Shown here: positions 9,273-22,680 of the stretch, piece after piece
Layout of the letters: each line of letters starts with the position of its first letter
Numbering within the stretch: position 1 is the stretch's first letter
Source: a virus
Length of the DNA: 64,000 nucleotides
Strand: one strand, 5' to 3'
Virus record (IMG/VR): IMGVR_UViG_3300031841_003468
Location: 62,001-126,000 of that record
The notes under the pieces: generated by a model
Told to the model about the DNA's origin: nothing
The model's input: only the letters and a program-made list of their open reading frames with translations
Database searches by the model: none
Made by a program: the position numbers and the translations under genes

Positions 9273-9330
9273 TTTTTACCCCCCTTTCGGGTGGCGGGGG
9301 TGCCGGGCCCCTTACCCCCCACTAAAGGGG
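9273..9330. repeat. Double-hairpin element, copy 1
   Basis: Plus strand: TTTTTA, then CCCCCC-loop-GGGTGG, a central GGGGT/ACCCC arm with TGCCGG, and a terminal CCCC/GGGG stem. The gene at 9322 ends inside it. Nine copies occur between 9.2 and 22.7 kb, all in this orientation. Confidence 0.75.
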
Positions 9331-9498
9331 TTCATAGGTATCACAATGCCCAACAGCTTCACCCACTATACCGAAGTCCTCAATAGTCTTTACCCGTGCC
9401 TTAAGTGCCGCCAGTATCACATCATCGGATAAGTCGAACGGCTCGCATTCGTCTGTCGTAACTTCAAAACATATATCTAAAACGTGTGTGTACTTCAT
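9322..9498 (-). CDS. Small acidic protein of unknown function
   Basis: 58 residues from MKYTHVLDICFEVTT; the ATG at 9498 shares ATGA with the upstream gene and follows GGGAG. The LSDDVILAALKARVKTIEDFG segment is likely helical. Stop lies in hairpin element 1. Confidence 0.6.
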   Translation of the reverse strand: MKYTHVLDICFEVTTDECEPFDLSDDVILAALKARVKTIEDFGIVGEAVGHCDTYEPL

Positions 9499-9614
9499 CG
9501 TGTCATCTCCCAGCTTAAACACTCATTTTCCATAAGCTCATTCAGGTAGTTGTATACTTCCACACTATCAACATCGTCATGGTCAAACTCTAATTCAATT
9601 ATTACTTTAGCCAT
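9495..9614 (-). CDS. Small acidic protein
   Basis: 39 residues, MAKVIIELEFDHDDVDS..., acidic. It overlaps genes on both sides and lacks a strong ribosome site of its own, so it is probably coupled. Confidence 0.5.
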   Translation of the reverse strand: MAKVIIELEFDHDDVDSVEVYNYLNELMENECLSWEMTR

Positions 9615-9834
9615 TTTGCAAATCCTTCAATGCTGGAATCGTAAACCTAGTTCTTAGTTGGTGCATAGCAGAAAGAATCTCCTGCTCAAGCTCAGCCGCC
9701 TCAGTTAGGCTATAGACATAATTAGCTACACCTAACTCAACAGTCTCATCAACTATCTGACAGCTAACATACTTACCGACGTAAACATCTTGGATGATGT
9801 TACCATCTACTTCTGTTGGTTCAATATATCTCAT
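9607..9834 (-). CDS. Small protein of unknown function
   Basis: 75 residues, beginning MRYIEPTEVDGNIIQDVYVG: a beta-rich first half and a helical second half (EAAELEQEILSAMHQL). It starts four bases after the preceding gene ends. Confidence 0.6.
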   Translation of the reverse strand: MRYIEPTEVDGNIIQDVYVGKYVSCQIVDETVELGVANYVYSLTEAAELEQEILSAMHQLRTRFTIPALKDLQNG

Positions 9835-9838
9835 TTCC

Positions 9839-10252
9839 TTACTCCATAAAACTTAAAACTTTTTTATTATCGTAATATTTTGGCAGGTCTTTTTTGGCAA
9901 ATGGTTTTGCTATAGTTGGTTGGGTACGATCTCTTTCAACATTACAGTGTTCAACATCTTCACCTTTTGGTACATCGTACCACTCAATGGTGACCTTTCC
10001 TTCATAGTCTAGTACCTGAGCGTGAAAGTCAACGTCTATAATACTAACAATCCATTGCTTACCTAGTAGCTTGCTTTGACCATCGAAGGCTATGATGTCA
10101 ATAAATTCACCTTCCATGTCTATGTCGGTTGCGTACTCATACCATTTACTGCCAGCCATACCACCGCCGCAGCTCATCGTTATTCTTTTGCCGCCTTTGA
10201 TAACGGGCGTTTCTACTCGGCGTTGGAACTTGCTCCATAATCCAATTCTCAT
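9839..10252 (-). CDS. Protein of unknown function
   Basis: 137 residues, beginning MRIGLWSKFQRRVETP, predicted mostly beta-strand with a lysine-rich tail. CTAGGAGA site; first gene of the unit driven from 10297. No family recognised. Confidence 0.65.
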   Translation of the reverse strand: MRIGLWSKFQRRVETPVIKGGKRITMSCGGGMAGSKWYEYATDIDMEGEFIDIIAFDGQSKLLGKQWIVSIIDVDFHAQVLDYEGKVTIEWYDVPKGEDVEHCNVERDRTQPTIAKPFAKKDLPKYYDNKKVLSFME

Positions 10253-10296
10253 TTCAATTCTCCTAGTGAACTTCTGTAGGTGTGAACAACACCCCT

Positions 10297-10325
10297 ATTA
10301 TACTCCAAATTACAATCCAAGTCAA
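10297..10325 (-). promoter_or_regulatory. Promoter, TTGACT-17-TATAAT
   Basis: Consensus minus-strand promoter for genes 10252 to 9322. No GCCGAT word in its spacer. Confidence 0.75.
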
Positions 10326-10326
10326 G

Positions 10327-10590
10327 CTACTCATTGTAAAACCTCAGGTCATCATGATTGCCCATGTATCTGTTACGGCACTCAACTTCAATGTACTGAA
10401 TTTCATACCAGTCATAGTCTTCGCAGTGGTTTTCTAGTAACTGCTTTTGTTTCATTGCTCTATCCAATGAGCAGTAAGCAATACCAACACGGCAACCGTG
10501 ACTGTCGCCTGCATCAAACCCTTCAATCTGGTAGTACCTGAATAGGTCTGGCTTTCTTCTTCTGCTAGTAAGAACGTCTTTAGACTGCAT
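10327..10590 (-). CDS. Small protein of unknown function
   Basis: 87 residues, beginning MQSKDVLTSRRRKPDLFRYY; acidic and tyrosine-rich C-terminal half (NHCEDYDWYEIQYIEVEC). AAGGAG site. It ends within two bases of the next promoter. Confidence 0.6.
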   Translation of the reverse strand: MQSKDVLTSRRRKPDLFRYYQIEGFDAGDSHGCRVGIAYCSLDRAMKQKQLLENHCEDYDWYEIQYIEVECRNRYMGNHDDLRFYNE

Positions 10591-10628
10591 CGCAATCTCC
10601 TTATAGAATGTGTGTTTGTTACTCTCTT

Positions 10629-10656
10629 ATTATATATTATCGGAGCATGAAGTCAA
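10629..10656 (-). promoter_or_regulatory. Promoter, TTGACT-16-TATAAT
   Basis: Consensus minus-strand promoter with TCCGAT in the spacer; TTAAAGTTC lies just upstream of the -35. It is 27 bases from element 2. Confidence 0.8.
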
Positions 10657-10683
10657 GAACTTTAAGGAATTTTTTGGGATTTA

Positions 10684-10742
10684 TTTTTTACCCCCCTGAT
10701 GGGTGGCAAGGGGGCCGGAGGCCTCACCCCCCAAGAGAGGGG
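10684..10742. repeat. Double-hairpin element, copy 2
   Basis: TTTTTTACCCCCC-loop-GGGTGGC, a central GGGGGCCGG arm with a possible GGCC/GGCC pairing, and a terminal CCCC/GGGG stem. Here it is followed on the right by an ordinary minus-strand terminator. Confidence 0.75.
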
Positions 10743-10758
10743 TATTCCCATTTGGCAT

Positions 10759-10796
10759 AAAAAAGCGGCGGCCACCGCATTAAGAGGGTGACCGCC
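10759..10796 (-). terminator. Intrinsic terminator, minus strand
   Basis: Ten-pair stem GGCGGTCACC/GGTGGCCGCC (one wobble), then GC and six T on the minus strand. It ends the unit containing the 404-residue gene and the MKSEWW microprotein. Confidence 0.8.
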
Positions 10797-10879
10797 TAAA
10801 CAACACACTTTGGTAGGGCGATGGGGATTGACCTCAAACTTAATTGGGTCGCTCCCTCATCTTCGGCGGTGTGTGCCTA

Positions 10880-10987
10880 CTAACCCCTGTTCGCATTATG
10901 CCTCCGGCAGATGGCTTGGGCTAGACGTTGAAGTATTTTCTCAGTCACCCAAATCCAAACCACCATCAGCCACCATTCTGACTTCAT
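10880..10987 (-). CDS. MKSEWW-family microprotein, copy A
   Basis: 35 residues, MKSEWWLMVVWIWVTEK followed by a basic amphipathic helix (ILQRLAQAICRR). It shares ATGA with the stop of the 404-residue gene. A paralogue at 14589 starts MKSEWWLMILWVWITEK. Conservation at the protein level with different codons (for example AAG TCA against AAA AGT) supports translation. Probably a membrane-associated amphipathic peptide. Confidence 0.7.
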   Translation of the reverse strand: MKSEWWLMVVWIWVTEKILQRLAQAICRRHNANRG

Positions 10988-12198
10988 ACTGCAAGCTCTC
11001 CCGCATAAATGGATTTCATATCTTTATCCGTGATCGTGTTCGACCGCTTAATAAGATTATCCCATCTACTGTCAGAAAAGTCAACCAGACTTCCACCAAT
11101 TTTGTCGAATCGGTTCCACTGGTCATTGCCCAGCGTTTGACCTGCACGAGTGATGGCGTTAACCAAACCGAATTGACTTCGGTGTGCTGACTCGAACTTA
11201 TTCCAAGCCTGTAGCGTTGCGGATGCTTGACGCTTGTCTAGCTTGAAATCCTTCGCAGCGGCGGCAACCACTTGATCCAGTCGAGCAGTACCGATTACAC
11301 GGCCACGTGTTTCCATCAATTTACGCATCCCTAGCGGAATGAGTGGCAACTGTGCTTCGATGTTCTCACGCAGTTTGATGGCCAACTCGTTGAGATCAAT
11401 TTCGCCGATGTGACGTTTCTTAATCTCTTTGCCTGCAACCTGTCCCCAGATGCAACCATTCAAGCAGATTGAACGGAATAGGCTAGGCTGTTGACCGATG
11501 CGGCGTTTGCCAATCTCACAGTTAGAGATTGAGACCATCCCACCGTAATCGCTGTCATCATCCTGACCGTAATCCATAACGGTATCAGGCAGTAGGACGT
11601 TACCGAAAATAGTATCCTCATCACCTCGCCAGTGAGACAGTCGCCCATTAGGTAGGTTTTTTTGTAACTGCTCAATGTACCAGCGATTGTCAATCGGTGC
11701 ATACTTATCAGTAACGAATGACCGCAAGGTAGAATCCGACTTATATGTACGCAGTAGGAATTCCTTGTCAGGGTCTACACGTCGCAGGCTATTAGCGGCC
11801 AAGTATTTCATCGCAACGGCATCCTGCTCATCACGCACGACACCCTTAGTGTCATTATTAAGTTTACCCAGCACTGTGCTAGATGGCACACCCGAACGGG
11901 TTGAGAACTGTTGTAAAGCCCAGTCGGTAGGACGATAGCATAAGCCATTGACCTCAAAGACAAACTTGCCATTGTCAACGGTTGGACGGATATCGCTAGC
12001 CTTAACCAGCAAGTCTTCACGATCCTCTACAGATCGTTGCATCAATTCCATGCCCTCATCATAGGACATTGTGGTACGCCACCAATCCTTGTGGACGTGT
12101 GTACCGTCAGCAAATCCAACTCCAGATTGGCCTTGCAGGTTCCGAACGAAAGAACCAGCGTTTTTGTCAGCAGTCATTTTGAGTGTTTGATATTCCAT
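10984..12198 (-). CDS. DUF932-like phage protein
   Basis: 404 residues. The central part (RSFVTDKYAPIDNRWYIEQL near 160, then GMVSISNCEIGKRRIG and FRSICLNGCIWG near 220-250) resembles the DUF932 phage and plasmid family, whose role is not established. The C-terminal third is helical. It has its own promoter and terminator; the MKSEWW microprotein is the second gene of the unit. The base composition is more GC-rich than its neighbours, which may reflect separate acquisition. Confidence 0.65.
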   Translation of the reverse strand: MEYQTLKMTADKNAGSFVRNLQGQSGVGFADGTHVHKDWWRTTMSYDEGMELMQRSVEDREDLLVKASDIRPTVDNGKFVFEVNGLCYRPTDWALQQFSTRSGVPSSTVLGKLNNDTKGVVRDEQDAVAMKYLAANSLRRVDPDKEFLLRTYKSDSTLRSFVTDKYAPIDNRWYIEQLQKNLPNGRLSHWRGDEDTIFGNVLLPDTVMDYGQDDDSDYGGMVSISNCEIGKRRIGQQPSLFRSICLNGCIWGQVAGKEIKKRHIGEIDLNELAIKLRENIEAQLPLIPLGMRKLMETRGRVIGTARLDQVVAAAAKDFKLDKRQASATLQAWNKFESAHRSQFGLVNAITRAGQTLGNDQWNRFDKIGGSLVDFSDSRWDNLIKRSNTITDKDMKSIYAGELAV

Positions 12199-12241
12199 CT
12201 TAGGAACTCCAATTAGAAAAAAGTGTTGTTTGTTGTACTCT

Positions 12242-12269
12242 ATTATATATTATCGACAGCCAAAGTCAA
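12242..12269 (-). promoter_or_regulatory. Promoter, TTGACT-16-TATAAT
   Basis: Consensus minus-strand promoter with GTCGAT in the spacer, for the DUF932-like gene. Confidence 0.8.
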
Positions 12270-12274
12270 GAACT

Positions 12275-12430
12275 TTAATGGAAAAATTCCATAATATGTT
12301 TTTTAGCTGCGGTTGCCCGTGTTCGCTCTCGCCGGTTGCGGCGGTCTTGGTGTACGCCTGCACCGCTACGGTGTTCGTTGTGACCCTTCTCGATCTTCCA
12401 CTGTGGTTTTACGTTGAGCTTGATTTTCAT
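12275..12430 (-). CDS. Small basic protein
   Basis: 51 residues, MKIKLNVKPQWKIEKGHNEH then arginine-rich QDRRNRRERTRATAAKK. GGAGAC site and its own promoter at 12474. Very basic, so nucleic acid binding is plausible but unproven. Confidence 0.6.
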   Translation of the reverse strand: MKIKLNVKPQWKIEKGHNEHRSGAGVHQDRRNRRERTRATAAKKHIMEFFH

Positions 12431-12473
12431 TGGATTGTCTCCGGTTAGAATAGTGTGTCCTTGTTACTCTTCT

Positions 12474-12501
12474 ATTATACGTATCGGACATAGCAAGTCA
12501 A
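12474..12501 (-). promoter_or_regulatory. Promoter, TTGACT-16-TATAAT
   Basis: Consensus minus-strand promoter with TCCGAT in the spacer; 27 bases from element 3. Confidence 0.8.
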
Positions 12502-12528
12502 GAACTTTAGCCTTTTTTTCGGGATTTA

Positions 12529-12586
12529 TTTTTACCCCCCTAACGGGTGGCAGGGGTGCCGGAGCCCTCACCCCCCTTCCGAGGGG
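12529..12586. repeat. Double-hairpin element, copy 3
   Basis: TTTTTACCCCCC-TAAC-GGGTGGC, central perfect stem GGGGTG/CACCCC with loop CCGGAGCCCT, then CCCC-loop-GGGG. The clearest example of the consensus. Confidence 0.8.
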
Positions 12587-12613
12587 ATCAGCTCTCAGCC
12601 TTCTTGGTTTGGG

Positions 12614-12784
12614 TTAAACATTTCCCCACTGTTGTTCCATGTTCTCGAATATGTCACTTGAATTATATATCACATCGACCAAATCCCATAGAACATAGTT
12701 TTTCAATTCTTCGAGACTATACGATTCCATTTCTTTCCTTGCGTATAGTTCGCATTTGCTTATGTGCTTTTCTTTCTCACTCAT
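12614..12784 (-). CDS. Small acidic protein
   Basis: 56 residues, MSEKEKHISKCELYARKEME..., helical and charged. ATAGGAGA site; overlaps the upstream gene by eight bases. Confidence 0.55.
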   Translation of the reverse strand: MSEKEKHISKCELYARKEMESYSLEELKNYVLWDLVDVIYNSSDIFENMEQQWGNV

Positions 12785-12956
12785 TTTCATCTCCTATCAC
12801 ATCGTCCCAGTCTGTTTCAAATGCTTCTCTGTCGTTCTTGTAATAATCGTATTGATTTTCATAGAAGTGTTGAACAATAGTATCTAAGTCGGCAGAGTCG
12901 GTAATTTCTTGAGCTAGTCTTTCAATGTTTTCTTCGCTATGTTTAACTTTAATCAT
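12777..12956 (-). CDS. Small acidic protein
   Basis: 59 residues, MIKVKHSEENIERLAQEITD..., acidic and tyrosine-rich (HFYENQYDYYKND). Shares ATGA with the upstream microgene. Confidence 0.55.
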   Translation of the reverse strand: MIKVKHSEENIERLAQEITDSADLDTIVQHFYENQYDYYKNDREAFETDWDDVIGDENE

Positions 12957-13045
12957 CTGAATATTCCTTTAATGAAATCAATTAGGTAATCGTGCAATGC
13001 GTCAAGGGTGTCTAAGTATTCCTGTTCCATAGTCTGCTTCCTCAT
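12953..13045 (-). CDS. Microprotein of unknown function
   Basis: 30 residues, MRKQTMEQEYLDTLDALHDY..., one amphipathic helix. Start and stop both overlap neighbours in ATGA form. An internal ATG at codon 6 is an alternative start. Confidence 0.45.
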   Translation of the reverse strand: MRKQTMEQEYLDTLDALHDYLIDFIKGIFR

Positions 13046-13455
13046 GATGATTGCCCCTCATCTTTATATTGAACCCCACTAGCATCAATGCCGCCTTTGA
13101 GTTGGATGGTCACGAACTTAGCGGACTTAACCCGTCGCTCTGTGTCACATGCAACAAACGAATCGTACTTGTAGGGATTATAGGTTACCTTGGTAGTGTC
13201 TAGTGTGTAGTTGCCATTCTCGTCACGGTGGTAGTCGTTTACCATCTCACCAGCTACACCGGCGTGAACATTCTTCTTCTTCTCTCGTAGTACCTTGGCA
13301 CGTCCTGCTTGGCCTACTCTGAATTCAGCATCAGCAAGATTGACGTTATGGTAATGGCCGATGACCTTGCCTGTCTTTCTGCTACGAACCGAGAAAAGTT
13401 TCTTGTGAAGATTGAAGTAAACAAAAACTGAATTGTCTGTTAATCGCTTTGCCAT
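13042..13455 (-). CDS. Conserved basic phage protein of unknown function
   Basis: 137 residues, beginning MAKRLTDNSVFVYFNLHKKLF. KLFSVRSRKTGKVIGHYHNV and AEFRVGQAGRAKVLREKKKNVHAG look like a protein seen in many environmental phages with no assigned function. Start at 13455 after AGAGGAGCC. First gene of its unit, with an untranslated leader of about 155 bases from the promoter at 13617. Confidence 0.7.
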   Translation of the reverse strand: MAKRLTDNSVFVYFNLHKKLFSVRSRKTGKVIGHYHNVNLADAEFRVGQAGRAKVLREKKKNVHAGVAGEMVNDYHRDENGNYTLDTTKVTYNPYKYDSFVACDTERRVKSAKFVTIQLKGGIDASGVQYKDEGQSS

Positions 13456-13616
13456 GATCGTGGCTCCTCTTGTGTGTGTGTTGTAAAAAGAAGATAGCTT
13501 ATCCAACTTACGTGAACACCTGTCGTGGCTAGGCCGATACTAGGCTGGTTGATTATGTCACTCGGTTATGGTTTTGGACTACACCGTCACTTGTAGCCTC
13601 GCTCTCTTACTCTTCT
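13456..13616 (-). other. Long untranslated leader
   Basis: Between the -10 box at 13617 and the start at 13455 there is no open frame. GC content is higher than in other leaders here and short inverted repeats are present. A structured regulatory leader is possible, but I recognise no riboswitch class. Confidence 0.35.
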
Positions 13617-13644
13617 ATTATACCATATCGGCATAAGATGTCAA
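13617..13644 (-). promoter_or_regulatory. Promoter, TTGACA-16-TATAAT
   Basis: Consensus minus-strand promoter with TGCCGAT in the spacer. Confidence 0.8.
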
Positions 13645-13650
13645 GCAACT

Positions 13651-13962
13651 TTAAGCAGATTCCGCAAAAAGTTCAGCTAATTCATCTGAGCCCATCTGTG
13701 CCTCTAAGCATCGGATGATTAGACATGCAACAATCTTCATGCCGGATGACATGGTAGCGTGCATTTCTGGATCGTCGTATTCTTCTGTGGCCTGCTGTAC
13801 ATAAGCAGGAACAAAGTCAACTAAGATTTCGTAAAGCTCTTTGTTACCGCCACTATGTAGCAACTGTAGAGTATCATAGACAAAAGCTCCGTGGCCTTTA
13901 ACTACAAGCTGGTCAACTAATGCGTCGCATACTTCTGGCGACACTGGTGGGATGTGTGACAT
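13651..13962 (-). CDS. Helical protein of unknown function
   Basis: 103 residues, beginning MSHIPPVSPEVCDALVDQLV, predicted all-alpha and acidic. CAGGAGAC site; sole gene between two promoters. Confidence 0.65.
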   Translation of the reverse strand: MSHIPPVSPEVCDALVDQLVVKGHGAFVYDTLQLLHSGGNKELYEILVDFVPAYVQQATEEYDDPEMHATMSSGMKIVACLIIRCLEAQMGSDELAELFAESA

Positions 13963-14000
13963 AACTGTCTCCTGTGAATGTGTTGTTTCTTACTCCCTCT

Positions 14001-14028
14001 ATTATATACATATCGGCTATCAGGTCAA
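14001..14028 (-). promoter_or_regulatory. Promoter, TTGACC-16-TATAAT
   Basis: Minus-strand promoter with AGCCGAT in the spacer; 37 bases from element 4. Confidence 0.75.
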
Positions 14029-14065
14029 CAAAAATCCAGTAAATCCGGTCAGAAAGCAGGAATTA

Positions 14066-14124
14066 TTTTTACCCCCCCAATGGGTGGCAAGGGGCCCGGC
14101 GACCTCACCCCCCCTTTCGGGGGG
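14066..14124. repeat. Double-hairpin element, copy 4
   Basis: TTTTTACCCCCCC-loop-GGGTGGC, central GGGG/CCCC arm, then a strong CCCCCC-TTTC-GGGGGG stem. It ends eight bases before the stop of the gene at 14132. Confidence 0.75.
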
Positions 14125-14131
14125 CATTGGC

Positions 14132-14380
14132 CTACAACACAATTTCACTAATCACTAGGTCGTTAGGGTTATAGCTAAAATACGCCTCGGTGTCATTCTT
14201 GACGTGTAGCGGCCATGCGTCCGTGGGCATTGAGCCATTCAAGAATTCTATAATATGATCCAATCGGCACTTCGCCATTCTTGCCGCCTCTTCTATACTA
14301 TCGGCTTTCACTTCGCCGTTAGTGTAGTTGCAATACAAGCCGCCGCTTGTCTTCAGGTGGTAACTATATAATCTCATCAT
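14132..14380 (-). CDS. Small protein of unknown function
   Basis: 82 residues, beginning MMRLYSYHLKTSGGLYCNYT, with an ADSIEEAARMAKCRLDHIIEF helix. It shares ATGA with the gene upstream. Confidence 0.6.
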   Translation of the reverse strand: MMRLYSYHLKTSGGLYCNYTNGEVKADSIEEAARMAKCRLDHIIEFLNGSMPTDAWPLHVKNDTEAYFSYNPNDLVISEIVL

Positions 14381-14601
14381 GCAACCTCCAAGTTCTGGAC
14401 ATATGCCTCGATTTCCAAACCATGATAACCGCCATGAAATTTACATGCCTCACTAGGATTTACTATCCTGCAAATATATTTGTTATCAGGTAATTCTTTC
14501 AGCATTACTAGGTCTTGGCCTTCTTCTAGTAATGCCATTCGGCTGCAATATGCTTGGTCATAAAATCCGTTATGCCCTGCTCTGATTTTTAGTTTCTGCA
14601 T
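14377..14601 (-). CDS. Small protein of unknown function
   Basis: 74 residues, MQKLKIRAGHNGFYDQAYCS.... The AAGGAG site for this start lies inside the overlapping MKSEWW microgene, so the two are physically interlocked. The segment LLEEGQDLVMLKELPDNKYICRIV looks like a small beta fold. Confidence 0.6.
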   Translation of the reverse strand: MQKLKIRAGHNGFYDQAYCSRMALLEEGQDLVMLKELPDNKYICRIVNPSEACKFHGGYHGLEIEAYVQNLEVA

Positions 14602-14693
14602 TGTAATCTCCTTGCGATTGCTTCGCCTAGTCTTCTAACTACTTTTTCAGTAATCCATACCCATAGAATCATTAGCCACCATTCACTTTTCAT
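14589..14693 (-). CDS. MKSEWW-family microprotein, copy B
   Basis: 34 residues, MKSEWWLMILWVWITEK then VVRRLGEAIARRLQ. Paralogue of the protein at 10880 and, like it, coupled by ATGA to the gene directly upstream (here the gp88-like gene). A hydrophobic tryptophan-rich head and basic amphipathic tail suggest membrane association. Confidence 0.7.
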   Translation of the reverse strand: MKSEWWLMILWVWITEKVVRRLGEAIARRLQCRN

Positions 14694-15484
14694 TTTGCAC
14701 CCGCTTTCAGGACTTGCAATGCTTTTGATGCGTCGCTTCCCTTAGGCTGTGTACCATGAATCAACAATGCGAATGATTGATTCCGTTTTGATGGTTCGGC
14801 GGCGTGAGTGTCATTGCTGTCAATCTCTAAGCCTTTTGCGTCGGCTTCTTCTTGGCTGAACACCACAACAGCTTCCCGCAAATTGTGAGTGTCGATTAGG
14901 TGGTCTTCTCGACCGCCACGGCTAGCAGTGAGTACAATGTTAGGAATACTATTTACCAACTCCATATTCTTTACCCAATATCGTAATGATTTGGTATAAG
15001 CATAGAACAGAACAGTGGGATTAGCTTGTGCTAACAATAGCCACGCCTTGAAGTATTCTTCATTGAACATATCACCGGCAACGTGAATGCGAACAATACC
15101 TACATTCTTAGGTAACTTGGATTGTAGTATACCTGCCATCTCTTCAGCAGTTTTCACTGATTGAATTGCGTCGGTGTTGGCTTTACGTCGATTGTATACC
15201 GTAGGCATTAATGCTTCTTGTGATGCACTGAAACAGCGGAACTTTGTATTGGCACCGTCTTTAACTTTGACTTTTGCATTGCCACTTTCAGACAGTCCAC
15301 CAATCTCAACTACCTTAGATGAACACTCGGAAGCAAAGGGACAAGTCCAACCACTCAATAGGTCGAGTGAATAAATCTTTCGCTTGTCCTGCAAGAAGTT
15401 ATCAACCAATTCACTACTCTCACGTAGCTTTTTAGTTTTAGCGTTTTCGTTACTGAATTTTAGGTCGAGATTAGAATAATCCAT
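14690..15484 (-). CDS. gp88-like phage protein
   Basis: 264 residues. It resembles the mycobacteriophage gene product 88 family: LDLLSGWTCPFASEC near residue 42 with a cysteine cluster, RCFSASQEA near 83, then RIHVAGDMFNEEYFKAW near 132 and FYAYTKSLRYW near 159. The family is widespread in phages without an established activity; the cysteines suggest a metal site. Sole large gene of its unit, with the MKSEWW microprotein coupled behind it. Confidence 0.65.
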   Translation of the reverse strand: MDYSNLDLKFSNENAKTKKLRESSELVDNFLQDKRKIYSLDLLSGWTCPFASECSSKVVEIGGLSESGNAKVKVKDGANTKFRCFSASQEALMPTVYNRRKANTDAIQSVKTAEEMAGILQSKLPKNVGIVRIHVAGDMFNEEYFKAWLLLAQANPTVLFYAYTKSLRYWVKNMELVNSIPNIVLTASRGGREDHLIDTHNLREAVVVFSQEEADAKGLEIDSNDTHAAEPSKRNQSFALLIHGTQPKGSDASKALQVLKAGAK

Positions 15485-15523
15485 GATAGGTTCCTTAAGA
15501 GGTGTGGTGTGTTGTATGTCTCT

Positions 15524-15551
15524 ATTATATATTATTATCGGCCAAAGTCAA
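15524..15551 (-). promoter_or_regulatory. Promoter, TTGACT-16-TATAAT
   Basis: Consensus minus-strand promoter with GGCCGAT in the spacer; it overlaps the stop codon of the next gene upstream. Confidence 0.8.
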
Positions 15552-15736: not shown

Positions 15737-15764
15737 ATTATATACTATCGGCATGTGGGGTCAA
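15737..15764 (-). promoter_or_regulatory. Promoter, TTGACC-16-TATAAT
   Basis: Minus-strand promoter with TGCCGAT in the spacer; 37 bases from element 5. Confidence 0.75.
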
Positions 15765-15801: not shown

Positions 15802-15861
15802 TTTTTACCCCCTCTTGTGGGGGGCGAGGGTGCCGGAGACCTTACCCCCCTTTCGAGGGGT
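15802..15861. repeat. Double-hairpin element, copy 5
   Basis: TTTTTACCCCCT-loop-GGGGGGC, GGGTGCCGG core, TTACCCCCC-TTTCGA-GGGG stem. It lies between the end of the 15874 gene and the promoter at 15737. Confidence 0.75.
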
Positions 15862-15873
15862 GTTGGCCACTCC

Positions 15874-16868: not shown

Positions 16869-16885
16869 TGTTGTTGAATACTTAT

Positions 16886-16913
16886 ATTATATAGATTTGC
16901 CGACTGTTGTCAA
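16886..16913 (-). promoter_or_regulatory. Promoter, TTGACA-16-TATAAT, antisense to HNH gene
   Basis: Consensus hexamers just downstream of the HNH stop, reading left through the HNH gene in antisense. The spacer carries GTCGGC, the complement of the usual word. It may be the original promoter of the 15874 gene, displaced by the insertion. Confidence 0.65.
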
Positions 16914-16974
16914 GCCCTTTTTGCCCGGTATCTAAGGCGTAGAAGTCGTCCCGCTGGATCAGCTTGGACATCCC

Positions 16975-17160
16975 CTATTTGTGAAGTGGGATGTATCCTG
17001 TGTTGTTCCAGTATGTGACCGCAAACTTCACGTATGCGGTGAGGTTGTCCCCTTTGTAACCGTACCTATTATACACACGGTCAAGCCATTGGTCAACAGC
17101 TTCATTTATTTCCCCGTCGTGGCCTAATGCTACAGATAGCTTTTCCAATAATTCTTTCAT
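16975..17160 (-). CDS. Small protein of unknown function
   Basis: 61 residues, beginning MKELLEKLSVALGHDGEINE, acidic helical first half and aromatic second half. AAGGAG follows the stop of the gene upstream. Confidence 0.6.
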   Translation of the reverse strand: MKELLEKLSVALGHDGEINEAVDQWLDRVYNRYGYKGDNLTAYVKFAVTYWNNTGYIPLHK

Positions 17161-17172
17161 CGTATTTTCTCC

Positions 17173-17388
17173 TTAGCCCCAATCGCCGCATTCAGCAACA
17201 TCGACCACGCCGACCCTATCCATCGTTTCCCGTGTGAACTCCCCACGATAATCAGGGTGCCACGGCACGAAGACGACGAGCCTATCGCCGTCAACCTCCA
17301 GAACCTTGATGGAGTCGTGTTCGGGATGAATCCCGTTGGCGTGAGCGGTGGCGTTGGCGGCGGTGTCGAAGAAGATTTCAAAGTGCAT
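17173..17388 (-). CDS. Small acidic protein
   Basis: 71 residues, beginning MHFEIFFDTAANATAHANGI. The AAGGA site and acidic composition favour this frame over a longer overlapping one. KVLEVDGDRLVVFVPWHPDY looks like a beta hairpin. GC-rich relative to neighbours. Confidence 0.6.
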   Translation of the reverse strand: MHFEIFFDTAANATAHANGIHPEHDSIKVLEVDGDRLVVFVPWHPDYRGEFTRETMDRVGVVDVAECGDWG

Positions 17389-17428
17389 CTGATTTTTCCT
17401 TAAAAGGTCTCTTGTGTGTTATGTCTCT

Positions 17429-17456
17429 ATTATACACTATCGGCGTAATATGTCAA
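17429..17456 (-). promoter_or_regulatory. Promoter, TTGACA-16-TATAAT
   Basis: Consensus minus-strand promoter with CGCCGAT in the spacer; 46 bases from element 6. Confidence 0.8.
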
Positions 17457-17502
17457 TAGTCTTTAGCCATAATTTCAGAAAAAGATGAGAAAGTTTTTAG
17501 AA

Positions 17503-17558
17503 ACCCCCTCTGTCGGGGGGTTGGCGGTCGGGCACCCTGACCCCCTATTGGTGGGGGG
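17503..17558. repeat. Double-hairpin element, copy 6
   Basis: A divergent copy: AACCCCC-loop-GGGGGTT, a re-paired centre GGTC/GACC, and CCCCC-loop-GGGGG. The changed but still complementary stems suggest that structure rather than sequence is conserved. Confidence 0.7.
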
Positions 17559-17581
17559 AAAATAATTGCATAAAAAATAGT

Positions 17582-17614
17582 AAAAAGGCCACCAGCCTAT
17601 TGACTGATGACCTT
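17582..17614 (-). terminator. Intrinsic terminator, minus strand
   Basis: Eleven-pair stem AAGGTCATCAG/CTGGTGGCCTT (two wobbles) and a run of five T on the minus strand, downstream of the 17719 gene. Confidence 0.75.
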
Positions 17615-17718
17615 CCACACAAAAGAAATTTCCAAGCACACAAGGCAGGGGTTAAGCCGTCACCCTTTTCATCCTTCATCAAGGAGGCTTTGACTGGACT
17701 GCCCGATGTGCAACCTTA

Positions 17719-18036
17719 CTAACTCTTGAACGCCGCCTTGATTCGGCCAAGCAATCCAACACCGGCATCTTTGACAGCCGCCATTCGGCCATCGTAGAAT
17801 GCTTTGGCGGTACCGTCTTCCAGTTCGACGGTGTACAGATATTGTGATCTGTCGCCCTTGATGTTGCCATATCGCAGAGTCTGGTTAGACACTGGATGAG
17901 TTGCCAAGTCACGAACTCCCGTGACAGTACCGACGTAAGTCTCGGCGTTGGCTACGTAATCACTTACCAAAGTACCGTTGATAAGTCCGACCTTTTTGTC
18001 TTTGAGATAGGTAAACTCGATCTTCTTTCCTAGCAT
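17719..18036 (-). CDS. Protein of unknown function
   Basis: 105 residues from MLGKKIEFTYLKDKKVG; GGAGG eight bases before the ATG at 18036. Mostly beta (LVSDYVANAETYVGTVTGV) with a basic helix at the C-terminus (LLGRIKAAFKS). Possibly an SH3- or OB-like small fold; no family recognised. Confidence 0.65.
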   Translation of the reverse strand: MLGKKIEFTYLKDKKVGLINGTLVSDYVANAETYVGTVTGVRDLATHPVSNQTLRYGNIKGDRSQYLYTVELEDGTAKAFYDGRMAAVKDAGVGLLGRIKAAFKS

Positions 18037-18037
18037 A

Positions 18038-18313
18038 TTAAATGCCTCCATTGAATGGTGATTCTTCTTTAGTGTGATTTTCGGGATTGCTGTAGAAAGA
18101 ACGCAACCATTCAATACGTTCTTCGCTACCTGCTTTCCCTAGTAGTCCGTCGTTGGACTCAGGTAATTCTCGCTTGCCAATATTCCTACCGGCAGAGCGT
18201 GGTTTGATTGCCCACAGATCGTTTCCGTTTTCGTCGATGGTGACGTTGAACGCTTCAAAGCATTGAATGTCTGTGAGTGCTACTTTTCCGTTTACTTCTG
18301 GGCAGATGCTCAT
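18038..18313 (-). CDS. Small protein of unknown function
   Basis: 91 residues from MSICPEVNGKVALTD (ATG at 18313 after AAGGAAA). Mixed composition, ends one base before the next ATG. No family recognised. Confidence 0.6.
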   Translation of the reverse strand: MSICPEVNGKVALTDIQCFEAFNVTIDENGNDLWAIKPRSAGRNIGKRELPESNDGLLGKAGSEERIEWLRSFYSNPENHTKEESPFNGGI

Positions 18314-18349
18314 TTTGATTTCCTTAGTGTTATCGTTTTGTATACTACT

Positions 18350-18377
18350 ATTATGCATATTTTGCATATGGTGTCAA
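18350..18377 (-). promoter_or_regulatory. Promoter, TTGACA-16-CATAAT
   Basis: Minus-strand promoter, one mismatch in the -10. No GCCGAT word. Confidence 0.65.
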
Positions 18378-18685
18378 GCAGAATAAACCTTTACTTTCCA
18401 GTTTTTTCCTGAATAGTCCATATAGTTATCGCCGTCACTATATACAGTAACTGAGCCGTCGTAACCATATGATGATGGCTGTGCTTGTGCGTCGTCATCT
18501 TGGACTGGATGCCAGCGGTCACCACAGCAACCACAGTCGATTCCATCGGCAACACCGTTAAAGTAGATGCCTTTATCTTGTGCTATGCTGTTAGCCTGAT
18601 CAGCGTTATCAGCTTGAATGAATACCAATGGAGTGCCAGCAAAAGCACCGCCTGAATTGTTTTGTCTGAATTTGAACCAGCTCAT
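18374..18685 (-). CDS. Conserved phage protein with CGCCGDRW motif
   Basis: 103 residues from MSWFKFRQNNSGGAF. DNADQANSIAQDKGIYFNGV followed by IDCGCCGDRWHPV belongs to a small phage family of unknown function; the cysteine cluster may bind metal. Shares ATGA with the gene upstream. Confidence 0.7.
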   Translation of the reverse strand: MSWFKFRQNNSGGAFAGTPLVFIQADNADQANSIAQDKGIYFNGVADGIDCGCCGDRWHPVQDDDAQAQPSSYGYDGSVTVYSDGDNYMDYSGKNWKVKVYSA

Positions 18686-18876
18686 AGTTCTACTCCGTTG
18701 TCGATTGCAAAATCTGTAAGGTGTCGTTTTTGATTCCAAAGTGATTCCAAGCCTTTGACAGCTTGCTTTTCTTCAACGCTCTTAGCGTTGGCAAGTCGGA
18801 CTAGCTTGTCCTCGATACGTAGGTTGATCTTGAATAGTTCCAGTTTGACATTTTGTTTTGTGATAGTTTTGACCAT
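18682..18876 (-). CDS. KLELFK-family small protein, copy A
   Basis: 64 residues, MVKTITKQNVKLELFKINLR..., a charged helical protein. It shares the pattern KLELFK-x-IE-K-V-AN-x-L-x-LW-x-K with the protein at 22357, so the two look like paralogues. Confidence 0.6.
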   Translation of the reverse strand: MVKTITKQNVKLELFKINLRIEDKLVRLANAKSVEEKQAVKGLESLWNQKRHLTDFAIDNGVEL

Positions 18877-18902
18877 TGTTTTTTCCTTTGTGTTACGCTC
18901 TT

Positions 18903-18931
18903 ATTATACCATACTTATCGGCAAATGTCAA
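18903..18931 (-). promoter_or_regulatory. Promoter, TTGACA-17-TATAAT
   Basis: Consensus minus-strand promoter with GCCGAT in the spacer. Confidence 0.8.
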
Positions 18932-18940
18932 TAGCAAAAT

Positions 18941-19051
18941 TCAATTATTTTCAAACTTTTTTATAAGCCAGCCGACTGGTAAACCTATAGCCGGAATGAT
19001 CACAAACATTACAAGAGCTTCGTTTTCGAGTGCCCACTGATAAAGATCCAT
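18941..19051 (-). CDS. Membrane microprotein
   Basis: 36 residues, MDLYQWALENEALVMFVIIP..., one span ending WLIKKFENN. Strong AAAGGAG site; sole gene between promoters at 19079 and 18903. Confidence 0.6.
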   Translation of the reverse strand: MDLYQWALENEALVMFVIIPAIGLPVGWLIKKFENN

Positions 19052-19078
19052 TTTTTTCTCCTTTGTTCTTACCTCTCT

Positions 19079-19106
19079 ATTATACATTATCGGCATGTGA
19101 AGTCAA
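19079..19106 (-). promoter_or_regulatory. Promoter, TTGACT-16-TATAAT
   Basis: Consensus minus-strand promoter with TGCCGAT in the spacer; 34 bases from element 7. Confidence 0.8.
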
Positions 19107-19140
19107 TAAACTTTAGGCAAAAAACCGGAAATAGGCAATC

Positions 19141-19190
19141 TTTTTTTTACCCCCCTCGTGGGGGGCGAGGGTGCCGGGGCCTTTTTTTCC
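19141..19190. repeat. Double-hairpin element, copy 7
   Basis: TTTTTTTTACCCCCC-loop-GGGGGGC and GGGTGCCGGGGCC; the second stem is degraded and replaced by a run of seven T. Confidence 0.65.
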
Positions 19191-19223
19191 TTAACTGGCC
19201 CAGTCTTGGCGTATCGGGTTAGA

Positions 19224-19556
19224 CTAATTCCTGAACAGCTTAACACGTCTGCCGGTCATGCCATTGTGCATCTTCCAAAATTCAGCACTGTGGTGGTCGG
19301 CGTTTCTTTTGGCTCGATCATATTCACTTATGCCGCCAGCGTTAACTAGTGAGTTTATAATTATAGCTCCGCAGGCTATGAAAAACAGAACTCCAGCAGC
19401 CACAGCCAAATTGCTTTTGACCCGTTCGGCGTTGTGATACTTCCAATCGGCAATGTAGTCTAGAGTATTGACGATTGCAGGCTTAACGCAAATGATGGCC
19501 CAAATTGCGTCGAGTGTTCTTTCTCCGATTCCTTTTGTGTATCGTGTAGGTCTCAT
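19224..19556 (-). CDS. Single-span membrane protein
   Basis: 110 residues, MRPTRYTKGIGERTLDA..., one clear span (SNLAVAAGVLFFIACGAIIIN) near residues 48-68 flanked by basic regions. TAATG overlap with the microprotein upstream. Confidence 0.65.
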   Translation of the reverse strand: MRPTRYTKGIGERTLDAIWAIICVKPAIVNTLDYIADWKYHNAERVKSNLAVAAGVLFFIACGAIIINSLVNAGGISEYDRAKRNADHHSAEFWKMHNGMTGRRVKLFRN

Positions 19557-19663
19557 TATTTTAATCCCTCGTAGATGAATGCCCCTGTTACAATTATAAA
19601 CCCGCCAATTAGCAAAGTCAAGAATATTCTGTCAATCAGTTTCTCTCGTCGTCGTCTGGTCAT
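19556..19663 (-). CDS. Membrane microprotein
   Basis: 35 residues, MTRRRREKLIDRIF then a span (LTLLIGGFIIVTGAFIY). Arginine-rich head predicts a cytoplasmic N-terminus. GGAG site. Confidence 0.6.
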   Translation of the reverse strand: MTRRRREKLIDRIFLTLLIGGFIIVTGAFIYEGLK

Positions 19664-19668
19664 TGTTT

Positions 19669-19926
19669 TTACTCCTCGTCTCGGATGACGATTTTGTTAA
19701 AGTCCTCTGAGTAGTTGACAACGGCAAAGCCTTTTGGCCCGATACAGATCGAGATCAGTTTGTCGCCATGTTTGTTTGAGTAGATGTCTATGCTTCTGGT
19801 TCCCTCTGCAGGTATGTCCTTGTGGCTCATGCTTGCTGCAGGCAGTTGCATTACATCGGAAAAGTCTGTATGAATTTCGCCTTGTCCGTAGTATTTGATC
19901 GCTGTGTTGATTCTGTCCTGATCCAT
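19669..19926 (-). CDS. Protein of unknown function
   Basis: 85 residues, beginning MDQDRINTAIKYYGQGEIHT; the second half (DKLISICIGPKGFAVVNYSE) is beta-rich. TAATG overlap with the gene upstream. Confidence 0.6.
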   Translation of the reverse strand: MDQDRINTAIKYYGQGEIHTDFSDVMQLPAASMSHKDIPAEGTRSIDIYSNKHGDKLISICIGPKGFAVVNYSEDFNKIVIRDEE

Positions 19927-20078
19927 TATTCAGTCTCCAGTTGGTTTTTGAGTTGGTCAATTTTGTCTAGTGCATCTTCGAGTAAGCATTTATCGTAGGC
20001 GTTGGTGCAATCTTCGATAATGTCCACTATTGTCGCTGCACAGTTTTCGTATGCTTCTAGTTTTTGTTCAGGTGTCAT
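19926..20078 (-). CDS. Small acidic helical protein
   Basis: 50 residues, MTPEQKLEAYENCAATIVDI..., acidic with three cysteines, ends in a coiled-coil-like IDQLKNQLETE. First gene after the promoter at 20099. Confidence 0.6.
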   Translation of the reverse strand: MTPEQKLEAYENCAATIVDIIEDCTNAYDKCLLEDALDKIDQLKNQLETE

Positions 20079-20098
20079 AGTTCTTTTCTCCTGCTAAT

Positions 20099-20126
20099 AT
20101 TATATACATCCAGCCGATTGGGTCAA
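20099..20126 (-). promoter_or_regulatory. Promoter, TTGACC-16-TATAAT
   Basis: Minus-strand promoter; the spacer has ATCGGC, the inverted form of the usual word. Confidence 0.7.
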
Positions 20127-20132
20127 GGGGTT

Positions 20133-20354
20133 TTATTCCCCTTTTGTACCGTACTTTTCAAAGTACCGTCGAGTGGCATCGACCTTAGATTGTGGAACTA
20201 GTTCCACGGCTACAACTTCCCAATGCACTTTAGAGTTGTACTTGTACATTGTTTCGCCGTGCTCATTCTGGATCAGGCGATCAGCACTGACCATTCTGAA
20301 ATTCCATTCTTGACCGTTTCGTGGGTGAACTGCTTTTACGTCGTATTGTTTCAT
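20133..20354 (-). CDS. Small protein of unknown function
   Basis: 73 residues, MKQYDVKAVHPRNGQEWNF..., probably a small beta fold with a helical end (KVDATRRYFEKY). Leader has the common ACAACACAAAAGGAAA sequence. Confidence 0.6.
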   Translation of the reverse strand: MKQYDVKAVHPRNGQEWNFRMVSADRLIQNEHGETMYKYNSKVHWEVVAVELVPQSKVDATRRYFEKYGTKGE

Positions 20355-20393
20355 CTTGATTTCCTTTTGTGTTGTGTTGTCTTGTATACCTAT

Positions 20394-20421
20394 ATTTTAA
20401 CATAGCTTCAGCCAATGTCAA
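20394..20421 (-). promoter_or_regulatory. Promoter, TTGACA-16-TAAAAT
   Basis: Minus-strand promoter with one mismatch in the -10. Confidence 0.65.
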
Positions 20422-20422
20422 A

Positions 20423-20659
20423 TTATTTTTTGCACTTTTCAGGATTTACTTTGACAACGTCTGACACTCTTGTCAAAACGTGTCGGCAAACTCCGCACAA
20501 GTAGCAGGTGTATTGAATCAATCCGCTTTTACCTACGGTTAGATCAGACACGTCAACCGAGCGGCTTACAATGACCCAGCCATCACCACGTGCTGCCCTG
20601 TGAGTTAGGCGAATCGTTTCTTGGCCTTCGATGGCTTGTTTGAATGCTTCTAGTTTCAT
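20423..20659 (-). CDS. Small protein with CxxCxxC-like cluster
   Basis: 78 residues, MKLEAFKQAIEGQETIRLTH..., with YTCYLCGVCRHVL near residue 50, a possible zinc site. GAGGAAA site. The promoter is unclear: TATAAT at about 20695 has no good -35. Confidence 0.6.
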   Translation of the reverse strand: MKLEAFKQAIEGQETIRLTHRAARGDGWVIVSRSVDVSDLTVGKSGLIQYTCYLCGVCRHVLTRVSDVVKVNPEKCKK

Positions 20660-20721
20660 CTTATTTCCTCTTGTGTTGTGTTGTTTTGTATGTCTATATT
20701 ATACCATAGGGGTGTGACACA

Positions 20722-20934
20722 TTAGGTCACTGGAACGTACTTTCCTACAATTTTTTTCCACTTTTTCATAACATAATCGTAGCTACCCTGAGCTTCGACG
20801 GTTCCCATAGATGAGCCGGTTGAGCCTACCCAAGTGGTTATGGCGTACTTACCCAAGCGATTGCATCGCACTAGGTGACGTGTTCCAGTTGGGGTTTCCT
20901 TAGTCATTCTGATTTCGTATGCGACGTATGCCAT
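20722..20934 (-). CDS. Small basic protein
   Basis: 70 residues, MAYVAYEIRMTKETPTGTRH..., beta-rich with a basic end (YVMKKWKKIVGKYVPVT). CACAAAGGAAA leader. Confidence 0.6.
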   Translation of the reverse strand: MAYVAYEIRMTKETPTGTRHLVRCNRLGKYAITTWVGSTGSSMGTVEAQGSYDYVMKKWKKIVGKYVPVT

Positions 20935-20971
20935 TTTGTTTTTCCTTTGTGTTGTTTCCTCTTATGTCTAT

Positions 20972-20999
20972 ATTATATACATCGGCATTCAAAAGTCAA
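20972..20999 (-). promoter_or_regulatory. Promoter, TTGACT-16-TATAAT
   Basis: Consensus minus-strand promoter with TGCCGAT in the spacer. Confidence 0.8.
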
Positions 21000-21116
21000 T
21001 AACTTTAATCGTTTTTTTATTTTTTCAGGGCCGGTTGAGCCTATAAAAATAGGGATTTGAGGGCAAAAGAAAGTTTTTTTTATTTTATAGTGGACACCTA
21101 GCATTTGCGTCATAGT

Positions 21117-21163
21117 ATTTTTCCCCCACCTCTGGGGGGTGAGGGTGCCGGGCCCTTTTAACC
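21117..21163. repeat. Double-hairpin element, copy 8
   Basis: TTTTTCCCCCACC-loop-GGGGGGTGAGGGTGCCGGGCCC. The last stem is missing. It lies farther from its promoter (117 bases) than other copies. Confidence 0.65.
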
Positions 21164-21233
21164 CATAAGTCAATAGATATATATAAAAACGGTCAGATTT
21201 CCGCTATTAATTTTTGAGAGGGTTTAGCCCGAT

Positions 21234-21446
21234 TCAGTCGGCTTGGACATGCCTAAGGTCTGAGAACATTCTAATCATGTCTACCCATTTGTTTCGGTCG
21301 TAGTCAGTTAGATTTATTTGATATGCTTCAGCACCTCTGTTGGCTGCTTTGTGAAAGCCTGCTTCTGTTGTGCATCCACGGCTATCACTCCAACGGATAG
21401 CATACTCCAAAGCCCAGTTCAATATTGTTTGTTCTCTACTTACCAT
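21234..21446 (-). CDS. Small helical protein
   Basis: 70 residues, MVSREQTILNWALEYAIRWS..., mixed helix with tryptophans. TAATG-type overlap with the gene upstream. No family recognised. Confidence 0.6.
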   Translation of the reverse strand: MVSREQTILNWALEYAIRWSDSRGCTTEAGFHKAANRGAEAYQINLTDYDRNKWVDMIRMFSDLRHVQAD

Positions 21447-21610
21447 TATACTAACTCCATGTTGTATTCGTGTTGTGCTGCTGCCAGTTCTTTAGTGTTG
21501 AATACTGGTATTCCATCAATGCATAGTTCATAATGTTCACAGTGGTTATTGCCTACCAACTCGATCAGTCGGCCTTCTACTTCTGCTGATTGAATAATAA
21601 AGAAATCCAT
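21446..21610 (-). CDS. Small protein of unknown function
   Basis: 54 residues from MDFFIIQSAEVEGRLIELVG; AAAGGGAAG before ATG at 21610. It ends in a helix (TKELAAAQHEYNMELV). Confidence 0.55.
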   Translation of the reverse strand: MDFFIIQSAEVEGRLIELVGNNHCEHYELCIDGIPVFNTKELAAAQHEYNMELV

Positions 21611-21612
21611 TC

Positions 21613-21762
21613 TTACTTCCCTTTGAATGTAGCTAATACGTTTGTTAACTCTGTACCTATGAATCGCCTTGCCCAACGTGCTTGCCTATAGTGTGCATAC
21701 CATTGACCCTGCTTAGTGTTTGGGTTTCGTCGTCGTCGTTTGTTTCCGTCTATCTGTCTCAT
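21613..21762 (-). CDS. Small very basic protein
   Basis: 49 residues, MRQIDGNKRRRRNPNTKQGQ then YAHYRQARWARRFIGTEL. AGGGAG site. Its arginine clusters suggest nucleic acid binding, without direct evidence. Confidence 0.6.
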   Translation of the reverse strand: MRQIDGNKRRRRNPNTKQGQWYAHYRQARWARRFIGTELTNVLATFKGK

Positions 21763-21772
21763 AGCTTACTCC

Positions 21773-22030
21773 CTAGCTGATTGACTGCCATTTACAGTTG
21801 CACTCGTTGCATACTGTTGTAGTTGTTCGGCTGTACTTGCCAACCTTAGTAACTACCGTGTCATACTTGCGACGTGTCTCTTGTCGTTCCTTGCGGATCA
21901 AGCCAATGCCGTTTGGGTTTGGCTCATTGTAGATAATGGTTGCTTGATACTCAGTTCCACAGTTGTTGATGTGGTTAGTGTATTCTGCTGGTTCAGTTGT
22001 CCATCCGTTCATTGTTCCGAGATTCTTCAT
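21773..22030 (-). CDS. Small protein with CNECNC motif
   Basis: 85 residues from MKNLGTMNGWTTEP (ATG at 22030, AAAGGAAA site). The CNECNC near the C-terminus together with a single upstream Cys might bind a metal. No family recognised. Confidence 0.6.
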   Translation of the reverse strand: MKNLGTMNGWTTEPAEYTNHINNCGTEYQATIIYNEPNPNGIGLIRKERQETRRKYDTVVTKVGKYSRTTTTVCNECNCKWQSIS

Positions 22031-22067
22031 TTTCTTTTCCTTTGTGTTGTTGTCTCTTGTTACTCTT

Positions 22068-22095
22068 ATTATAGACATGCCGACTGATAAGTCAA
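22068..22095 (-). promoter_or_regulatory. Promoter, TTGACT-16-TATAAT
   Basis: Consensus minus-strand promoter; the spacer has GTCGGC, the inverted word. Leader contains ACAACACAAAGGAAA. Confidence 0.8.
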
Positions 22096-22099
22096 GAGA

Positions 22100-22291
22100 T
22101 TATTTTACATTTTTTTTGATCCACTCGTTATCATGGTCAACTGATCTTTGATAGTGGTCAATCATCTCTTGCAACTTTTCAACAGTGTAGTAGTCATCGG
22201 TTTGCATGTTACTCAATCGCTTTTGGAAGTAGTCACGCTGGCTAAGGTTCTGTTGGTGTAAGACGTATAGTGCTGATTCTTGATATTTCAT
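22100..22291 (-). CDS. Small helical protein
   Basis: 63 residues, MKYQESALYVLHQQNLSQRD..., glutamine-rich helices likely to form a coiled coil. AAGGAAAAG site. No family recognised. Confidence 0.6.
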   Translation of the reverse strand: MKYQESALYVLHQQNLSQRDYFQKRLSNMQTDDYYTVEKLQEMIDHYQRSVDHDNEWIKKNVK

Positions 22292-22318
22292 TTTCTTTTC
22301 CTTTTCTCTTATGCCCTT

Positions 22319-22347
22319 ATTATATTATATATATCGGCCATTGTCAA
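22319..22347 (-). promoter_or_regulatory. Promoter, TTGACA-17-TATAAT
   Basis: Consensus minus-strand promoter with GGCCGAT in the spacer; a second TATAAT overlaps. Confidence 0.75.
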
Positions 22348-22356
22348 GAGAATTCT

Positions 22357-22527
22357 TTAACCATTTATGATTTTTTTTAGAATATCTTTTCTATCCCATA
22401 ACAACTGTAATTCGTTGTAGATACAGTTTTTATTCCACTGTCCTAATTCGTTAGCGTGTTCGACAATCTTCTTTTCGATTTGTCGGTCAGTCTTGAACAG
22501 TTCTAGTTTGGCTTCGTTCTTAGTCAT
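22357..22527 (-). CDS. KLELFK-family small protein, copy B
   Basis: 56 residues, MTKNEAKLELFKTDRQIEKK..., ending LQLLWDRKDILKKIING. Paralogue-like to the protein at 18682. GGAAG site. Function unknown. Confidence 0.6.
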   Translation of the reverse strand: MTKNEAKLELFKTDRQIEKKIVEHANELGQWNKNCIYNELQLLWDRKDILKKIING

Positions 22528-22563
22528 GTTGACTTCCTTTAATTCATTAATTGTTATACTCTA

Positions 22564-22592
22564 AGTATATACTATATATCGTCAAATGTCAA
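22564..22592 (-). promoter_or_regulatory. Promoter, TTGACA-17-TATACT
   Basis: Minus-strand promoter for the 22357 gene; the spacer has GACGAT. 37 bases from element 9. Confidence 0.65.
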
Positions 22593-22629
22593 TAGCTACA
22601 TGAGATAATTCTGAGAAAAAACCAAAGTA

Positions 22630-22680
22630 TTTTTTACCCCCCTAGTGGGTGGTGAGGCCGCCGGGCCCTTCTTTCCCTTT
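22630..22680. repeat. Double-hairpin element, copy 9
   Basis: TTTTTTACCCCCC-loop-GGGTGGTGAGG-CCGCCGGGCCC; third stem lost. Last full copy before the strand switch. A single related hairpin, CCCCC-TCTGTT-GGGGGG, lies at 22952-22970. Confidence 0.65.

Follow-up and report, generated by a model that had tools for sequence, protein, structure and literature searches.

A repeated stem-loop and early-promoter cassette as a probable border of transcription units in a large environmental phage

Introduction

What is the role of a GC-rich element that a virus repeats nine times, always in the same orientation, along a block of early genes? This question is raised by IMG/VR virus record IMGVR_UViG_3300031841_003468 (153.7 kb), of which positions 62001-126000, a stretch of 64,000 nucleotides hereafter called the window, were analysed. 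The order of gene, stem-loops and promoter recurs along the array and is conserved in relatives, and the structure is kept despite changes of its letters. From these sequence features, we consider it fairly probable that the element supplies the stem-loops of a composite stem-loop/early-promoter cassette, which would end one early transcription unit and start the next.

Relatives were reached among environmental contigs by using a promoter-linked DNA pattern and a neighbouring protein of 404 amino acids (aa), while the strict core pattern gave only three matches, all unrelated, among viral contigs. A covariance model was trained on 22 copies, six of them from the studied record, and run on two sets of 50 records each. 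Rfam gave no match at or above the gathering score in the window.

Results and Discussion

Nine elements coupled to early promoters

The nine elements are confirmed at the positions and in the single orientation given in the original prediction. The core pattern matched 13 times in the record and its reversed control not at all, and the model identified nine distinct copies (E 8e-12 to 1e-4; six of the nine matches belonged to the training set), all within window 9273-22686 and none elsewhere in the 153.7-kb record. The GC content is 0.64 for the elements versus 0.40 for the record. All coupled promoters and nearly all genes of this early block are on the minus strand; the element had been described in plus-strand letters, but read as RNA it comes after a gene and before the next promoter. 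The minus-strand order is the last gene of a block, a first hairpin (hp1, CCCC-loop-GGGGGG), a centre of about 20 nt containing CCGG, a further hairpin (hp3, CCACCC or CCCCCC-loop-GGGGGG), an A/T-rich stretch and the promoter, TTGAC-N17-TATAAT with CCGAT in its spacer. In the record and its relatives hp3 is invariably present, and hp1 and the central GC palindrome are optional. Instead of just the proposed double hairpin, the anatomy comprises as many as three hairpins or a single nested palindrome, and the CCCC-loop-GGGG arm is missing from copies 7-9. The letters of copy 6 differ from those of the other copies, as had been noticed. Even spacing holds for this array (mean 1670 nt, coefficient of variation 0.10) but not for the sister phages G001 and G030 (323-2105 nt, coefficient of variation 0.3-0.4), and evenness is therefore not a conserved property. 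Single GC hairpins resembling hp3 flank the array at 8776-8794 and 22950-22971 (GCCCCCAGAATAGGGGGTGTCT; CCCCCCAACAGAGGGGGCTGTCT) and are perhaps relics of elements.

Eight of the nine elements are followed, 27-46 nt downstream, by a sigma70-like promoter, TTGAC-N16/18-TATAAT, of the predicted expression class 'early'; for copy 8 the distance is 117 nt, in agreement with the earlier description. Promoters with CCGAT in the spacer were collected from record 70.7-84.8 kb (window 8.7-22.8 kb) and from the relatives, 65 in total; the CCGAT-like motif stands at variable distance from both hexamers and is operator-like in this respect. An element accompanies 25 of these 65 promoters, and the remaining 40 have none. 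The median distance from stop codon to promoter is 126 nt with an element, as opposed to 18 nt, and often about 10 nt, without one. Since the element-less promoters follow so closely behind stop codons, they stand inside transcription units, and an element is the mark of a unit border, not of promoters in general. Upstream stop codons are often located within a few nt of an element, or even inside it. Element 9 borders on the structural genes, and the relatives, too, have a reduced copy in this place.

The composite was recovered by the covariance model in 14 related viral records, 12 of the first 50 and two more in the second set, of which the third match was a record already counted. Eight copies each were identified in the sister phages G001 and G030, five in G028 and fewer in short contigs. 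For nearly every copy in 12 records, a promoter lies downstream on the same strand, mostly at 27-45 nt, with TTGCA or TTGAA sometimes replacing TTGAC. In some records whose kinship, judged by portal-region and 404-aa proteins, is more remote, the same model found no element. The search of bacterial genomes gave two contigs from metagenome bins, one with the element, which are probably mis-binned phage DNA; L264, a contig of a 'Rhodospirillales' metagenome-assembled genome, carries the 404-aa gene together with the element.

Structure and the sense of reading

The z score of the minimum free energy averages -3.7 and is below -2 in 26 of 28 full copies, and in the relative G028 hp1 is replaced by the perfect hairpin CTGCCAAAATGGCAG, composed of other letters. 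Both observations support the selection on structure that had been proposed. Judging from this replacement and from the reduced copies, local hairpins are favoured over one long hairpin. Among stem mispairs on the promoter-sense strand, G-U (G-T in DNA) is more frequent than A-C (53 versus 27, p=0.005, the copies being related), and in 26 of 32 copies the fold of the sense strand is more stable than that of the antisense strand. Taken together, the G-U excess and the sense-strand stability favour an RNA of the promoter-sense strand, read from upstream. The sense strand also carries runs of G, on which a G-quadruplex, one of the functions originally suggested, might be formed; the canonical four-run motif, however, is present on the sense strand in only 2 of 40 copies and on the other strand in none, and each G-run is paired with a C-run, so that we regard this possibility as very remote.

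A probable border between transcription units

If the element is such a border, the upstream transcript would be read into the stem-loops, which would form its 3' end; the stem-loops may slow or end transcription and/or block exonucleases. In some cases a canonical terminator immediately upstream would assist, and transcription would then restart at the downstream promoter. In the early region, strong minus-strand terminators are found at elements 2 and 6 and nowhere else; that true terminators lie next to two elements had been stated in the original prediction. Including the relatives, 7 of 40 copies are directly preceded by a canonical terminator and 2 of 40 have one within the element; copies behind such a terminator show no more than a trend towards weaker structure (p=0.09).

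The two copies with a proper hairpin followed by T6 (G001 12834 and G028 11464), together with a dozen more that end in TTTC or TTTT, would be expected if all elements were ordinary intrinsic terminators that have drifted. Most tails, however, are TAAAAA or AGAAA and are kept between orthologues (identity 0.84), indicating that the absence of the U-tract is maintained and is not decay, and canonical terminators have been added beside seven copies. Drifted terminators are thus a distinctly improbable explanation, and the statement that the elements are not ordinary terminators holds for most copies.

Several points weigh against a border formed by the stem-loops. The U-tract is mostly missing (mean 2.45 T in the 8 nt past the last G-run, often TAAAAA), and most copies should therefore not be efficient intrinsic terminators. 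The seven copies behind a canonical terminator are kept, although little upstream transcription is expected to reach them, and a simple terminator has no need of a genome-specific centre. With respect to structure, the covariation score is only modestly raised (0.113 versus 0.083 in shuffles; 2/500), because the stems consist of C- and G-runs; the pair counts fit three local hairpins and one nested hairpin about equally; and the count of G-U against A-C leaves the kinship of the copies uncorrected.

A centre that follows the genome

Eight pairs of elements from G001 and G030 were compared, orthology being assigned by order, with some flanks 93-97% identical. The identity between orthologues is 0.83 for hp1, 0.85 for hp3 and 0.84 for the tail, but 0.45 for the centre, a value to which the 2-4 nt greater length of the G030 centres contributes in part. 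Among copies of the same genome, the centres are 0.74 and 0.56 identical in the two phages (exact paired-swap test, 1/128), and no such genome effect was detected for hp1, hp3 or the tail in these pairs. G030 has the centres GTGTGCCGGCACAC or GCGGGCCGCCCCGC, and those of G001 are GGCCCCCGGCGGCC-like. In this one sister pair, the letters of the centre follow the genome and those of the hairpins follow the locus, and the centre is largely common to the copies of one phage and has been changed jointly between the sister phages. Gene conversion should drag along the adjoining hairpins, and the more natural reading is therefore co-evolution with a genome-specific factor. Eight orthologous cassettes that hold their position while nearly every core has changed make these natural sister genomes a clean setting for the study of co-evolution between the core and a trans-acting factor, and of cassette-driven exchange of blocks.

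The genome-specific centre suggests reading by a phage-specific factor, which would be the least certain step in the proposed border function. As a tentative extension that we consider rather unlikely, the borders could be coded: a putative phage-encoded RNA- or DNA-binding factor would recognise the centre as a phage-specific tag and decide between end of transcription and read-through by the polymerase. The tag reading is likened to the N protein of lambdoid phages and its cognate boxB hairpins, a pair that varies from phage to phage.

The same data are relevant to a different explanation, in which the centre is a DNA site for a putative phage-specific dimeric protein, a regulator or road-block with the adjacent promoter or the incoming polymerase as its target, the flanking hairpins being of secondary importance. 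In many copies the centre forms a palindrome around CCGG, it is the only part whose letters track the genome, and it is retained where an upstream terminator should stop its transcription. Against this explanation, the centre stems alone form only slightly better than shuffled ones (104 versus 95 +/- 4.7), the distance from centre to promoter varies, several boundary copies have lost the centre, and the G-U excess of the sense strand points to RNA. On balance, the DNA site is a minority possibility, albeit one of some weight.

A protein of 178 aa (L089:16779-17315) is present in three larger records with the element and missing from four without, and it also occurs on an 8-kb contig in which no element was detected. 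As a partner gene of the element it is a phylogenetic-profile lead only. By eye, it contains a motif that reads like those of PD-(D/E)XK nucleases, and its gene lies beside DNA polymerase III genes, of which the alpha subunit is apparently split over two (L089:12015-13574 and 14798-16696).

Exchange of gene blocks at the elements

The gene families are shuffled among G000, G001, G030 and G028. The flanks of G001 15510 and G033 578 are 92% identical downstream of the element while the genes differ upstream, a likewise clean break is found at the element shared by G030 19945 and G031 1112, and the element at G028 16562 combines the upstream flank of G001 12834 with the downstream flank of G001 11048. 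Exchange of blocks thus happens at elements, but its excess over other junctions is not significant (adjacency broken at 31 of 67 element junctions versus 21 of 65 others, p=0.11, the data being non-independent). Of the earlier proposal of cassette boundaries, the differing modules and some breaks exactly at elements stand, and a preference for elements is not significant. Since the same GC-rich stretch recurs at many block borders, it may provide short stretches of homology for the swapping of blocks. That the elements are primarily recombination sites, used by a recombinase or by general recombination and only incidentally connected with transcription, would agree with the shuffling and the clean breaks. 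We nevertheless consider it improbable, as broken adjacency is not significantly enriched, orthologous elements keep their places in G001 and G030, neither an integrase nor attC-like boxes were noticed beside the elements, and the constant coupling to a promoter would be left unexplained.

Positions of features and neighbouring genes

Table 1. Window coordinates of the elements, early promoters and intrinsic terminators.
Feature	Position	Strand	Remarks
Element 1 (hp1 + centre + hp3)	9273..9333	-	5' side overlaps the end of open reading frame 9498-9322
Element 2	10685..10745	-	
Element 3	12529..12589	-	
Element 4	14066..14126	-	
Element 5	15803..15863	-	
Element 6	17499..17559	-	divergent letters; TTTCT after hp3
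Element 7	19144..19193	-	without hp1
Element 8	21118..21172	-	without hp1; promoter 117 nt off
Element 9	22631..22686	-	without hp1; at border to structural genes
Early promoter coupled to element 1	9218..9245	-	TTGAC...CCGAT...TATAAT
Early promoter coupled to element 2	10629..10656	-	
Early promoter coupled to element 3	12474..12501	-	
Early promoter coupled to element 4	14001..14028	-	
Early promoter coupled to element 5	15737..15764	-	
Early promoter coupled to element 6	17429..17456	-	
Early promoter coupled to element 7	19079..19106	-	
Early promoter nearest element 8	20972..20999	-	
Early promoter coupled to element 9	22564..22592	-	TTGAC...ACGAT...TATACT
Canonical intrinsic terminator GCGGTGGCCGCCGCTTTTTT	10759..10779	-	directly upstream of element 2
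Canonical intrinsic terminator GGTCATC...GGTGGCCTTTTT	17581..17612	-	directly upstream of element 6

Among the neighbouring genes, 3870-4784 encodes a SASA esterase in which a dockerin and a planctomycete-extracellular motif score above the cut-off, and 7807-8550 a matrixin metalloprotease; these host-like secreted proteins make a planctomycete host plausible. The lone plus-strand gene within a module, 16353-16868, gave no Pfam match; its cysteine-rich start is like that of record 896-1357, and members of its family recur elsewhere in G030 and G028, in the manner of a mobile gene of the endonuclease type.

Comparison with known systems

The T4-type phages reportedly carry promoter(early) stem-loops (PeSLs), each said to consist of a small stem-loop, which is an effective transcription terminator, and a strong sigma70-type early promoter, and to be repeated between small early genes of a variable region where modules are exchanged at or near the cassettes. 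The present elements share with them the stem-loop adjoining a sigma70-like promoter and the repetition between small early genes; their shuffled modules, with some breaks exactly at elements, resemble the exchange at PeSLs but show no significant excess. In phage RB49, order and spacing are the same in two places, with the stem-loop 16-32 nt upstream of a TTGAC..TATAAT early promoter. The RB49 stem-loops, however, are terminators with a U-tract (7 of 8 T), which the present elements mostly are not, and the latter form as many as three hairpins in tandem, with a palindromic centre that is specific to the genome, and carry CCGAT in the promoter spacer. Furthermore, the terminase large subunit matched 40 records of Bacillus and other phages (including Bacillus phage Staley), the best at about 26% identity; the matched terminases are those of Bacillus siphovirus-type phages, no T4-type phage was among the matches tallied or listed, and the comparison gave no close relative among named phages. 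Since two features of PeSLs failed, the U-tract terminator and the T4-type phage, the elements are not members of that group; by analogy, they may work like PeSL cassettes.

REP and BIME palindromes of enterobacteria are GC-rich, lie at the 3' ends of transcripts and can protect RNA. In contrast, the present copies are fixed to a promoter, have one orientation and keep orthologous places. The PeSL work of Arbiol 2010 (doi 10.1093/gbe/evq006) and Comeau 2014 (doi 10.1093/gbe/evu129) is cited in PMC4503421, PMC4177764 and PMC5348500. In HGTV-1, a haloarchaeal tailed virus, a TATA-box-like motif and an inverted repeat precede most open reading frames in one part of the genome, and its authors likened this motif to PeSLs (PMC3950731); by description, the combination of promoter motif and inverted repeat is alike, but the promoter is archaeal. 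The ESAS of Cluster K mycobacteriophages are inverted repeats in one orientation within the non-structural half, and their consensus differs between subclusters (PMC3203893), a precedent for genome-specific letters of a repeat; they are tied to translation starts and a 13-bp SAS, whereas the present elements are tied to gene ends and promoters. The original prediction that no phage element of this form had been described is therefore wrong, as T4-type PeSLs and the HGTV-1 motif (PMC3950731) share the form. Relative to these known cassettes, the lack of a U-tract in most copies and a centre tied to the genome, with hairpins tied to the locus, look unusual, and cassettes of promoter and stem-loop at unit borders would now extend to large environmental phages of an unrelated clade.

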